Assembly (NCBI GenBank): GCA_946182825.1
Contig: CAMGZH010000015.1
Coordinates: 1 to 64,000 of the forward strand
Length of the DNA: 64,000 nt
Origin: an uncultured Lachnospiraceae bacterium
GTDB lineage: Bacteria > Bacillota > Clostridia > Lachnospirales > Lachnospiraceae
Direction of reading: 5' to 3'
Part shown: piece by piece, positions 45,617 to 56,503 of the stretch
Position numbering within the stretch: position 1 is the first letter of the stretch
How the letters are laid out: each line of letters starts with the position of its first letter
Program-made: the position numbers and the translations under genes
Notes under the pieces: model-generated
Told to the model about the DNA's origin: nothing
Seen by the model: the letters and a program-made list of their open reading frames with translations, nothing else
Database searches by the model: none

Positions 45617-46435
45617 ATGTTAAAACTTGCAATTTACGGAAAGGGTGGCATCGGTAAATCCACCATTACTTCAAACCTTGCAGCGGCTTTTGCCACCCTT
45701 GGGAAAAAGGTGATTCAGATCGGCTGCGATCCGAAGGCGGATTCCACCGGTAATTTATTGTCCGGTCAGCCGCTTTTGCCGGTGATGAATTATCTTCGGG
45801 AGCATGATGAGGATCCCACCTCTCTGGATCAGATCTCACGAAGAGGATTCGGCAATGTTTTATGTATCGAGACCGGAGGTCCGACACCGGGACTTGGTTG
45901 TGCCGGACGAGGCATCATTTCCACCTTTAATCTGCTGGATGATCTGGAACTTCTGGAGACGGAAGAGCCGGATGTTGTCCTGTTCGATGTCCTTGGAGAT
46001 GTTGTATGTGGCGGTTTTGCGGCACCGATCCGGGAAGGTTTTGCTGAGAAGGTTCTGATCGTAACCTCCGGTGAGAAGATGGCTCTCTATGCGGCGGGCA
46101 ATATCAATCAGGCGGTGAAGAATTTTGAAGACCGGGGATATGCCAGCGTGTATGGACTTGTGCTGAATCATCGAAATGTAGCGGATGAGACCGAGCGTGT
46201 GGGAGAATTTGCAGCGGAAAACGGTCTTCGGATCGTGGCGGATATCCCAAGAGATCCGGCTTTCCAGACCGCAGAAGATCAGGGCAAAACGGTAGTAGAA
46301 CTGGATGCTTCTTCTGAGCTGAGCGGACGTTTCCTTGCATTGGCAAAGGAACTTCTGGAGGCATCTGACGGGGATGACGGGACCGATATGTCCATTGACC
46401 CGGACAGCTTTGTAGAGTGTGAGGACTGCGTATGA
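45617..46435 (+). CDS. NifH-like nitrogenase-superfamily reductase (iron protein)
   Basis: 272-residue homologue of nitrogenase Fe protein/BchL/CfbC. These are dimeric ATPases that hold one 4Fe-4S cluster between subunits and pass electrons to a NifD/NifK-type partner. Walker A YGKGGIGKST (7-16) is intact, switch I CDPKAD (37-42) is present, and both cluster ligands are kept: Cys 95 in PGLGCAGRG and Cys 131 in DVVCGGFA. It is slightly shorter than NifH (about 290). No nifB, nifE or nifN genes adjoin, so nitrogen fixation is unlikely. It heads a ten-gene operon and overlaps the NifD-like gene by ATGA. It is the only reductase for two NifD/K-like pairs. Confidence 0.9.
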   Translation: MLKLAIYGKGGIGKSTITSNLAAAFATLGKKVIQIGCDPKADSTGNLLSGQPLLPVMNYLREHDEDPTSLDQISRRGFGNVLCIETGGPTPGLGCAGRGIISTFNLLDDLELLETEEPDVVLFDVLGDVVCGGFAAPIREGFAEKVLIVTSGEKMALYAAGNINQAVKNFEDRGYASVYGLVLNHRNVADETERVGEFAAENGLRIVADIPRDPAFQTAEDQGKTVVELDASSELSGRFLALAKELLEASDGDDGTDMSIDPDSFVECEDCV

Positions 46436-47733
46436 TAAAAAAGGAAGCCATCTGTTACACCGCAGCTGAACTGGCGGAACTGGGAAAAGATCAGATCCCG
46501 GAGAATTTTCAAAGTGGAACACAGCTGGTGTACAGTTCTCCGGCGACCCTGGCCTATAACTCTCCCGGAGCAGAAGGATTCGGAGTAAAGCGAGCCGGCC
46601 TATCTGTGCCGGGTTCCATTATGCTCATCGTTGCCCCCGGCTGCTGTGGAAGAAATACCTCCTCCATTGCCCGGATCAAAGGCTACGCAGACCGGTTCTT
46701 CTATCTGGATATGACGGATACCGATCTGGTAACGGCAAGACATCTGCGAAAGATTCCTCAGGCGGTACGTGAGATCGTTGAATTTCAGGAAGCGGAAGGA
46801 AAACGACCGAGTCTCGTTATGATCTGCATCACCTGTGTGGATGCCCTGCTGGGCACCGATATGGAGCGGGTTGCCCGCAAAGCCGAGGAGCTTGTGGGGC
46901 TTCCGGTTCGTCCATGCTATATGTACGCCCTGACCCGTGAGGGACGCAAGCCTCCTATGGTACATGTGCGCCAGTCTCTCTATGAGCTTCTTCCGAAGCA
47001 GAAAAAGAGAGGAACCTCTGTGAATCTTATGGGTTTTTTTGCTCCGCTGATCGATGAATGTGAGCTTTATTCCCAGCTGCATAGCATTGGCGTCAAAAAC
47101 ATTCGTGAGATCTCACGCTGCAGTTCCTATGAGGAATTTCTGAAGATGGGAGAGGCGAATTTTAATCTGGTGCTGCATCCGGAGGCAAGGGCAGCGGCAG
47201 AAGATCTTCTGGCCAGACTGGATATCCCTTACGTGGAATTGACCCGCCTGTACCAGATCGATCAGATCGAAAAGCAGTATCAGGCCTTCGGTCAGGCCAT
47301 TGGATATGAGATCCAAAGTCCCCGGAAGAGGCAGGAGGCTTTGGAGGCAGTGGAAGCACTGCGGCAGGCATATCCGGATCTTACTTTTACCGTGGGAGAG
47401 GCCATGAACGGCAATCCTTTTGAACTGGCTCTTGCCCTTCTTCGCTATGGGTTTTCCGTGTCCGAGATCTATGGAACACCGGCCCCGGAACATTTTGTCT
47501 ATATTGATCCGCTGGCGAAGCTCAGTCCGGAAACGAAGATCTACTGCAATATGGAACCGACCATGCTCTATTACGACAGCAGTACAGCAAAGGCAGATGT
47601 TACCATCGGTAAGGATGCGGCCTTTTATCATGAGGATGCGGCCCATGTGTACTGGAATGAAGATATTCAGCCCTTTGGCTATGCCGGCGTGACCCGGTTA
47701 ATGAAGGCGATCCTAGAGGAGGTGTCACGATGA
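46432..47733 (+). CDS. NifD-like nitrogenase component 1 protein, first pair
   Basis: 433 residues of the nitrogenase component 1 superfamily (NifD/NifE/BchN/CfbD/MarD). By eye, Cys 71/72 in VAPGCCGRN sits where NifD has its second P-cluster cysteine (GPVGC), and Cys 132/135 in MICITCVDALLGTDME where NifD has its third (CPIGLIGDD). The first NifD cysteine is not evident (LAYNSPG). The FeMo-co Cys region shows no cysteine. It may thus hold a 4Fe-4S cluster as in DPOR-type enzymes rather than a full P-cluster (inference). ATGA overlaps link it to both neighbours. Function is unknown. Confidence 0.82.
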   Translation: MIKKEAICYTAAELAELGKDQIPENFQSGTQLVYSSPATLAYNSPGAEGFGVKRAGLSVPGSIMLIVAPGCCGRNTSSIARIKGYADRFFYLDMTDTDLVTARHLRKIPQAVREIVEFQEAEGKRPSLVMICITCVDALLGTDMERVARKAEELVGLPVRPCYMYALTREGRKPPMVHVRQSLYELLPKQKKRGTSVNLMGFFAPLIDECELYSQLHSIGVKNIREISRCSSYEEFLKMGEANFNLVLHPEARAAAEDLLARLDIPYVELTRLYQIDQIEKQYQAFGQAIGYEIQSPRKRQEALEAVEALRQAYPDLTFTVGEAMNGNPFELALALLRYGFSVSEIYGTPAPEHFVYIDPLAKLSPETKIYCNMEPTMLYYDSSTAKADVTIGKDAAFYHEDAAHVYWNEDIQPFGYAGVTRLMKAILEEVSR

Positions 47734-55325: not shown

Positions 55326-56503
55326 AAGAAGCATATAGAATCCTTCCGGTTTATGCGGGAGATGTATCCGGTGTTGCCTCTGCCCTGTACGAACTGGGAG
55401 GTATGGTAGTCATGCACGACCCTTCCGGCTGTAACAGTACCTACAACACCCATGATGAGGTCCGCTGGTATCGGAAAGAAAGTTATATTTTCATCTCAGG
55501 ACTGAACACCAGAGATGCTGTCCTTGGCAATGATAAGAAGTTTATGGATGATATTGTTGCCGCAGCAACCGGGCTTTCCCCGGCTCCAAAGTTTATCGCC
55601 CTCTGTAATTCTCCCATCCCGTTTTTAAACGGAACCGACTTTAAGGGGATTGCCAGACTTTTAGAGAAAAGGCTGCAAATCCCGGTATTTTACGTTAAAA
55701 CCAACGGGATGCACGATTATGTTGACGGAGCCGGAAGAGCTTTTTCCTGTTTTGCACAGAAACTGTTGCCGGCTGACAAACGATTGCAGGAGGAAAGGGT
55801 CGTACCTGCGGATCCTTCCGCCCCTGTCAAAATCAACCTGCTGGGGCTGACCCCTCTGGATTTTGCAGACTATCAAAACGTCGAAAACTTAAAAGAACAC
55901 CTGAAAAAAGCCGGCTTTGATGTTGTGGCCAACTGGTCCTACGGAACCTGCTTTGAGGACGTTATGCAGTCAGGAAAGGCGGATGTCAATCTGGTTTTGT
56001 CCGCCACCGGTCTGCCCCTGGCAAAAACCTTGCAGAATATGTATGGTCAGCCCTATGTTGCCGGACTTCCTCTGGGCTCTCTGTCCGAAGAAATCTACCG
56101 GCAGCTTCGGCTGGCTGCCGCCGGTGAGGACTTCTGCACTTTTCCGGCAAAGGAAACGCCTTCGGTCACCGGTCAAACAAACGGGAAGACCCTGTATCTG
56201 ATTGGGGAAGCCCTTCAGTGCAAAAGCCTGGGCTATCACTATGTGGCAGATCGGGGCTTCCGCCGGGCAGTGGTACTTTGTCCGCTGGAACAGTCTGAGG
56301 AGTTGATCTCCTCCACCAATGGGGATATTCTAACCGTTGGAGAAGAGCAGATCGAGGAATATTTTAAGGACATGAAAAACACCGAGATCCTTTGTGATCC
56401 CATGTATGAACCGGTTCTTCCGGCAGATGCAAAGATTTGGAAGTATCCGTCTCTTTCTTTTAGTGGTAGAATTTTTGGCGGACATTTTCCAGTGTTTTTT
56501 TGA
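55322..56503 (+). CDS. NifK-like nitrogenase component 1 protein, second pair
   Basis: 393 residues. Clearly related to the NifK-like protein of the first pair: HDPSGCNSTYNTHDEVRW (Cys 37 at the same place), FIALCNSPIPFLNGTDF (Cys 95, shifted from the usual NifK position) and KTNGMHDYVDGAG. It is longer than the first one and keeps a C-terminal half with LPLGSLSEEIYRQLRLAAAG. Overlaps the NifD-like gene by ATGA and is the last clear member of the ten-gene operon. Partnership with the preceding protein is inferred from order and overlap. Confidence 0.8.
   Translation: MKEAYRILPVYAGDVSGVASALYELGGMVVMHDPSGCNSTYNTHDEVRWYRKESYIFISGLNTRDAVLGNDKKFMDDIVAAATGLSPAPKFIALCNSPIPFLNGTDFKGIARLLEKRLQIPVFYVKTNGMHDYVDGAGRAFSCFAQKLLPADKRLQEERVVPADPSAPVKINLLGLTPLDFADYQNVENLKEHLKKAGFDVVANWSYGTCFEDVMQSGKADVNLVLSATGLPLAKTLQNMYGQPYVAGLPLGSLSEEIYRQLRLAAAGEDFCTFPAKETPSVTGQTNGKTLYLIGEALQCKSLGYHYVADRGFRRAVVLCPLEQSEELISSTNGDILTVGEEQIEEYFKDMKNTEILCDPMYEPVLPADAKIWKYPSLSFSGRIFGGHFPVFF

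Follow-up and report, generated by a model that had tools for sequence, protein, structure and literature searches.

What does an operon make when it joins nitrogenase-like genes to the Hyp proteins that assemble an iron-cyanide unit? The question is raised by ten genes at positions 45617-56503 of a 64,000-nucleotide (nt) stretch, hereafter the window, of contig CAMGZH010000015.1 (assembly GCA_946182825.1) from an uncultured Lachnospiraceae bacterium. The operon encodes a NifH-like protein (H), a first NifD/NifK-like pair (D1 and K1), HypF, HypC, HypD, HypE, a TM1266-type putative regulator, and a second NifD/NifK-like pair (D2 and K2). Our reading, to which we give a probability of about three in four, is that HypFCDE makes iron-bound cyanide and carbon monoxide (CN and CO), and that the nitrogenase-like complexes turn these into a synthon for HydE and HydF, replacing HydG in the maturation of [FeFe]-hydrogenase (HydA). 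The predicted activity, judged from sequence, would thus be donation of CN and CO to HydE and HydF for the H-cluster.

Di Leonardo 2022 (PMC9431212; cited here and below from parts of its text) describes H-cluster assembly by way of HydE, HydF and HydG, with CO and CN derived from tyrosine through HydG. Loci related to the operon were found by scanning genome contigs with an alignment of D1, which gave 374 coding stretches, and all locus counts given here rest on the best 80 of these. The host and 50 of the genomes bearing these 80 loci, picked for complete clusters and named species, were searched for maturation genes. This revealed that none of the 51 cluster genomes has a HydG (TIGR03955) match over the cut-off, while HydF was found in 49 and a PF02906 [FeFe]-hydrogenase in 50; the genomes missing HydF (G006 and G020) or HydA (G030) are all metagenome-assembled drafts. 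The HydG-less genomes include the complete chromosome record of Clostridium carboxidivorans P7. Matches to the HydG model below the cut-off occur in 50 of the 51 genomes and exceed 150 bits in 25. Among the five of these stronger matches that were examined, the host's best (170 bits) is ThiH (514 bits) and the other four adjoin thiamine genes, as judged by eye, while the weaker matches, at about 50-95 bits, lie in the range of HydE, to which the HydG model gives 68 bits. The host encodes HydF (518 bits), HydE (518 bits) and one HydA, of group B (TIGR04105, 592 bits), all on contigs other than that of the operon. Its HydF (441 amino acids; L131:9804-11129) matches its family in two separate parts, as though additional residues followed the GTPase part, and the best HydF stretch in genomes G001, G002, G012 and G013 likewise begins near profile position 131-143.

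HydF and HydE also surfaced when the genes flanking the cluster were grouped by similarity. Searching the flanks of the 80 loci by tblastn placed HydF in 23, HydE in 11 and either of them in 25, against a random expectation of about 0.23 loci for one gene, and 12 loci have a HydF that begins 27-63 nt after the last core match ends. The system thus resembles HydEFG maturation in that HydF and HydA occur in nearly all searched cluster genomes, and in that HydE, HydF and TM1266 adjoin the cluster in some loci as they adjoin HydG in relatives; it differs in that cluster genomes have no HydG over the cut-off, the tyrosine lyase being replaced, on our reading, by Hyp and nitrogenase-like proteins.

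We analyzed the relation between the cluster and HydG in a set of 341 genomes from the class to which the host belongs, scoring D1 as present at E<1e-180. This set overlaps the 51 genomes, sharing the host and, as identical HydF places indicate, the genomes of loci L061 (G185) and L065 (G368). HydF exceeded its cut-off in 230 genomes and HydG in 215; D1 was present in 10, spanning four genera and three families, all ten with HydF over the cut-off and none with HydG. Counted by eye, 231 genomes have HydF at E<1e-80, of which 24 lack a full HydG, and the cluster occurs in 10 of these 24 versus 0 of the 207 HydG-bearing HydF genomes (Fisher p = 2e-11, uncorrected for kinship). The exchange is visible within single genera. 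In genus g66, six genomes have the cluster and no HydG, and three (G135, G291, G379) have HydG and no cluster; genus g146 holds two of the first kind (G260, G368) and one of the second (G386). Both HydG-type loci read in g66 (L127, L128) have the order TM1266-HydE-HydG-HydF, with a TM1266 relative leading the operon; at cluster-type loci of the same genus, K2 is followed by HydF (L125) or lies beside HydE-HydF (L138). In FastTree trees, whose rows are not a random draw, the cluster label changes 8 times for HydF (64 rows; at least 4 changes forced by starred branches) and 7 times for HydE (40 rows; at least 3 forced). Since both types are interspersed in these trees, more than one exchange of HydG is probable. 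Seven more genomes have only distant D1 matches (E 1e-46 to 1e-68), namely G122, G198, G229 and G319, which carry HydG, G191, which lacks both HydG and HydF, and G119 and G278; because four of the seven carry HydG, distant D1 relatives are not tied to its loss. Taken together, the HydG scores below cut-off in 51 of 51 genomes, the HydE and HydF neighbours and the exchange within genera point to an H-cluster biosynthetic system.

The 24 HydG-less HydF genomes comprise the ten with the cluster, three with a variant that lacks Hyp genes, four near-complete genomes with neither and seven drafts. The variant, in G119, G192 and G278, couples an H-D2-K2 set to a Fec-type ABC transporter in genomes without HydG or a HypD match. 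The same stretch holds TM1266 in G192 and G278, HydE in G119 and G278, and HydF in G278, and the D2 and K2 proteins from G119 and G278 fall into one group with those of the cluster (support 100/100). The three variant loci are:

L120:4429-13447, Hyp-less NifH-D2-K2 variant with HydE, HydF and TM1266
L124:901-8331, Hyp-less NifH-D2-K2 variant with HydE
L135:6812-14667, Hyp-less NifH-D2-K2 variant with TM1266

The lack of HydG in some of these bacteria has been met before. Of the eight clostridial acetogens surveyed in Di Leonardo 2022, only three are reported to have HydG, and five have HypCDEF in the absence of HypAB. In the parts cited, that survey sees no straightforward explanation for the missing HydG and puts forward two possibilities, an atypical radical SAM protein resembling HydG and free CO and CN. 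If either of these scenarios held, the cluster would serve something else. The same source gives an atypical candidate protein of about 450 amino acids in all surveyed species but C. autoethanogenum, and weak in vitro activation without HydG. In our searches, C. ljungdahlii and C. ragsdalei each give only one 67-68-bit match to the HydG model (E up to 1e-3), in the HydE range, and an atypical HydG leaves the cluster's exclusion of HydG and its HydE and HydF neighbours without explanation. We therefore regard these scenarios as very improbable.

How constant the cluster itself is was judged from its relatives. A protein search gave 2553 relatives of D1 among 7997 scored candidates, and gene order was counted in 65 of the 80 loci, those whose DNA extends 9.5 kb or more downstream from the start of D1. 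The order H-D1-K1-HypF-HypC-HypD-HypE is kept in all 65, which argues that the operon is not a product of chance. D2 and K2 are both present in 58; D2 occurs with K2 undetected in five, and neither was found in two, of which L036 bears the qualification that its DNA stops right after a second NifH, while in L060 neither was detected across about 4 kb past TM1266. Three of the 58 loci have the H-D2-K2 block on the upstream side, TM1266 gave no match in 17 of the 65, and 32 of the 65 have an additional NifH gene, versus none in the operon of the window. Carriers belong to the Lachnospiraceae, the Oscillospiraceae, Clostridium (C. ljungdahlii, C. ragsdalei, C. luticellarii, C. carboxidivorans) and the Coriobacteriaceae and Atopobiaceae of the Actinomycetota. 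In trees, D1 of the cluster forms one group only with support 59/91, and the D2, K1 and K2 groups are better supported. L036 also carries an insert of about 2.9 kb between D1 and K1 (L036:11246-14136), in which a flavodoxin-like frame and two similar frames were recognized by eye. The C. luticellarii genome (G368) has unusually many nitrogenase-like genes, with 27 PF00148 matches.

The original prediction, made from the letters of the window, described a one-strand operon of ten genes with short gaps and overlaps and proposed a neighbourhood survey to test whether the nitrogenase-like genes are in fixed linkage with hypFCDE. The linkage held in the 65 loci just described, and the operon was confirmed with every gene in the order given:

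45617..46435, + strand: H, NifH-like ATP-dependent reductase (PF00142, Fer4_NifH, 276 bits)
46432..47733, + strand: D1, NifD/E-like subunit (PF00148, Oxidored_nitro, 90 bits)
47730..48809, + strand: K1, NifK/N-like subunit (PF00148, 80 bits)
48836..51274, + strand: HypF, carbamoyltransferase starting cyanide synthesis (TIGR00143, 699 bits, cut-off 466)
51278..51484, + strand: HypC, Fe(CN)2CO scaffold chaperone (TIGR00074, 62 bits, cut-off 48)
51486..52571, + strand: HypD (TIGR00075, 358 bits, over the NCBIfam cut-off)
52590..53600, + strand: HypE (TIGR02124, 417 bits, over the NCBIfam cut-off)
53638..53913, + strand: TM1266-type putative regulator of iron-only hydrogenase system (TIGR03959, 101 bits, cut-off 61)
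53928..55325, + strand: D2, divergent NifD/E-like subunit (PF00148, 39 bits)
55304..56503, + strand: K2, NifK/N-like subunit (PF00148, 93 bits)

The intergenic distances are, in order, -4, -4, 26, 3, 1, 18, 37, 14 and -22 nt with starts chosen at 48836 for HypF (an ATG; the longest open reading frame begins at GTG 48755), 51486 for HypD and 53638 for TM1266. A GGDEF gene lies upstream of the operon and rsmH downstream.

Hyp proteins are not known to serve any enzyme other than [NiFe]-hydrogenase. One account of the operon would have HypFCDE serve such an enzyme, with the nitrogenase-like genes unrelated and the linkage accidental. The host genome (2.36 Mb, 97% complete) gave no match to the [NiFe] large subunit (PF00374), and its only HypD match is that of the operon. 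Of the outcomes that the original prediction named as refuting it, neither related clusters mostly without hyp genes nor a host [NiFe]-hydrogenase that explains the hyp genes was thus seen, the latter as far as the large subunit goes (hypA and hypB were not searched for in the host). PF00374 matches do occur in 8 of the 50 other cluster genomes and are absent from 42. Three of the eight are Clostridium and the remaining five match roughly the first 70 positions only; in the two of these five that were examined, a second HypC and HypD accompany the [NiFe] genes. The large subunit of L129 is of the Complex1_49kDa type and comes with a separate HypC, HypD and HypE, and that of L130 is NuoD-like and stands beside HypC, HypD, HypA and HypB. 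The gene order fixed in 65 of 65 loci also speaks against a [NiFe] client. The large-subunit searches largely refute it, and we consider it very improbable, the least likely of the explanations weighed here. The loci L130:685-6898 and L137:8700-13700 are both compact and [NiFe]-hydrogenase-like, with a large subunit of about 360 amino acids and hyp genes that include hypA and hypB (identified by scan in L130; gene names by eye in L137).

The Hyp proteins of the cluster nonetheless keep their key cysteines, namely Cys2 of HypC in 8/8 aligned rows (most HypC genes fall below the length limit of the alignment), Cys32, 60, 63, 306, 308, 321, 328, 337 and 345 of HypD in 53/53 rows, and the C-terminal Cys336 of HypE in 57/57, so that the Hyp machinery looks functional. 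In this it is like HypABCDEF maturation, from which it differs in a host without a [NiFe] large subunit and in an operon without hypA or hypB that is fixed to nitrogenase-like genes.

On the nitrogenase-like side, H has the P-loop and the two cluster cysteines of the NifH/Fe protein family: in an alignment of 89 rows, Cys95 and Cys131 are present in all and the P-loop residues each in at least 97%, and the closest solved chain is the nitrogenase Fe protein 1cp2 (E 1.2e-69). D1, K1, D2 and K2 all exceed the Pfam cut-off of the general Oxidored_nitro family and stay below the cut-off of every NCBIfam model they match. A nitrogenase component 1 fold is predicted by models of D1 and D2. K1 keeps Cys37 and Cys42 in 60/60 rows and K2 keeps Cys43 in 44/44, while the alignment of D1 shows extra conserved cysteines. 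When D1 was aligned by profile with the NifD-type chain 9p1x, the cysteine of its LLCHRS motif had no partner in D1 and the histidine ligand (His442) was unplaced; the FeMo-co ligands NifD Cys275 and His442 are described as absent from such proteins in the parts of Dos Santos 2012 (PMC3464626) cited here. The two-component architecture is shared with DPOR, COR, CfbCD and Mar, all of them nitrogenase-like, from which the four D/K proteins are set apart by their NCBIfam scores. The NifH-NifEN scaffold system offers a closer parallel in its reductase, its D/K subunits of the same fold and its two D/K pairs (NifDK and NifEN), and is unlike the operon in its cysteine pattern; identity over the structural matches to NifEN chains is 13-17%, and the operon contains no NifB. 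Elsewhere in the host, on contig C10 (L007:6930-11033 and neighbours), a NifD/NifK-like pair, NifB and a NifH-like frame lie among metQ/I/N-like, cysteine synthase and O-acetylhomoserine sulfhydrylase genes; this locus is probably a Mar-like methylthio-alkane reductase, separate from the operon.

The original prediction had suggested a new reductase of the nitrogenase superfamily, perhaps with an Fe-CN/CO centre, or one whose maturation borrows Hyp proteins. On the first of these readings, HypFCDE would make an Fe-CN/CO unit for the reductase's own active site. The linkage of NifH, D1 and K1 to hypFCDE in 65/65 loci, with D2 and K2 in 58, would fit such an enzyme, as would the additional conserved cysteines of D1. 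It does not account for the HydG scores below cut-off in every one of the 51 genomes, for cluster and HydG replacing each other inside genera or for the HydE, HydF and TM1266 neighbours, all of which favour a maturation system. We thus consider a reductase with its own Fe-CN/CO site unlikely, and what was taken for one is probably that maturation system.

For the maturation system, the chemistry by which HydG would be replaced can be sketched from known reactions. The thiocyanate made by HypF and HypE comes from carbamoyl phosphate, Fe(CN)2CO is the product of HypCD, NifEN is a known nitrogenase-type scaffold, and nitrogenases can reduce CO2 to CO. The role of HypCDEF is also given in PMC9431212, and the reduction of CO2 by nitrogenases in the parts cited of PMC10803253. 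We infer that, in the cluster, HypF and HypE would convert carbamoyl phosphate to enzyme-bound thiocyanate and the HypC-HypD complex would place cyanide and CO on iron. D1-K1 could then act as a NifEN-like scaffold, taking up the Fe-CN/CO unit and reducing or remodelling it with ATP-dependent electron transfer from the NifH-like protein. D2-K2, which has its own NifH in many relatives, would complete the synthon, possibly adding further CO that could derive from CO2, and hand it to HydE and HydF, which would finish the [2Fe] cluster and insert it into HydA. The step from HypCD to HydE and HydF would require that the iron be reduced or its ligands exchanged, a task to which D/K complexes driven by NifH seem suited, with the NifH-like protein presumably passing electrons to the D/K pairs, as the original prediction proposed. 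D1-K1 is placed next to HypCD because it always occurs with HypFCDE (65 loci), and D2-K2 next to HydE and HydF because it also occurs without HypFCDE, and then with HydE, HydF or TM1266.

Several observations weigh against HydG replacement. HypCD's Fe(CN)2CO differs in ligand ratio from Fe(CO)2CN, the product that HydG delivers according to PMC9431212. Neither HydE nor HydF adjoins the cluster in the window or in the available flank of 55 of the 80 loci. Three species with HypCDEF are credited with a HydG in PMC9431212, namely C. autoethanogenum (CLAU_RS03260), C. drakei and C. scatologenes; if this HydG proved genuine and stood beside the cluster there, it would speak against strict exclusion. 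Four genomes that are at least 98% complete (G210, G330, G333, G384) have HydF and neither HydG nor the cluster or its variant, so that absence of HydG alone does not predict the cluster. TM1266, HydE and HydF are present without HydG in G210 (L118), G333 (L122) and G384 (L123), HydF stands alone in its stretch in G330 (L121), which has another D/K pair with a NifH in its genome, and HypD of G333 sits in a [NiFe]-type locus; these genomes may have another source of CO and CN, or may have lost HydG. Seven further HydF genomes without HydG or this system are drafts that are 65-86% complete; among them, G233 has part of a HypD, and other D/K genes occur in G107. The D2-K2 variant with the ABC transporter has no HypD to supply its ligands. 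Finally, seven of the 341 genomes have HydG over the cut-off and no HydF match over its cut-off (G218, G064, G179, G227, G238, G338, G342), the first being a single-contig genome, which suggests noise of a few percent in calls of absence.

The mismatch in ligands could also mean that the operon serves [FeFe]-hydrogenase and makes an altered H-cluster, with, for example, other numbers of CN and CO. The only HydA found in the host, of group B, would be consistent with this. Against it, as many as six PF02906 matches, scoring up to 346 bits, occur in other cluster genomes, and an [FeFe]-hydrogenase has been purified from C. autoethanogenum (PMC9431212, citing Wang 2013), whose genome lies outside this search; we accordingly hold an altered cluster to be quite unlikely.

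Returning to HydG replacement, we favour on balance, with less assurance than for the core proposal, a fuller version in which Hyp cyanide chemistry and nitrogenase-type ATP-driven reduction are fused into HydG-independent H-cluster biosynthesis. In it D1-K1 would be an organometallic scaffold receiving Fe(CN)2CO from HypCD, D2-K2 would make a dinuclear synthon for HydE and HydF, perhaps with CO from CO2, HydG would have been replaced on several occasions among gut bacteria and acetogens, and a Fec-type importer would stand in Hyp's place in the variant.

Parts of this picture have precedents. Dos Santos 2012 (PMC3464626) noted that in Coprococcus catus NifHEN-like genes accompany those of hydrogenase maturation proteins, very probably the same cluster as here; in the parts cited, the link to Hyp takes one sentence, the kind of hydrogenase is unnamed and no tie to missing HydG is drawn. 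In Di Leonardo 2022, as far as cited, the word 'nitrogenase' occurs once, in a reference title. As our literature search found no paper joining the Hyp-nitrogenase-like linkage with missing HydG, we rate the system as new in kind, all of its components being known.

If correct, this reading would establish a second natural route to the [FeFe]-hydrogenase catalyst, joining the Nif, Hyp and Hyd metal-cofactor systems in one pathway and giving a role to a group of uncharacterised nitrogenase homologues. It would account for the reported missing HydG and orphan HypCDEF, and might provide a new means of producing [FeFe]-hydrogenases in other hosts. Gut Blautia, Roseburia and Coprococcus species, Coriobacteriaceae and Atopobiaceae, together with acetogens like C. 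ljungdahlii, would then build their [FeFe]-hydrogenases by another route.

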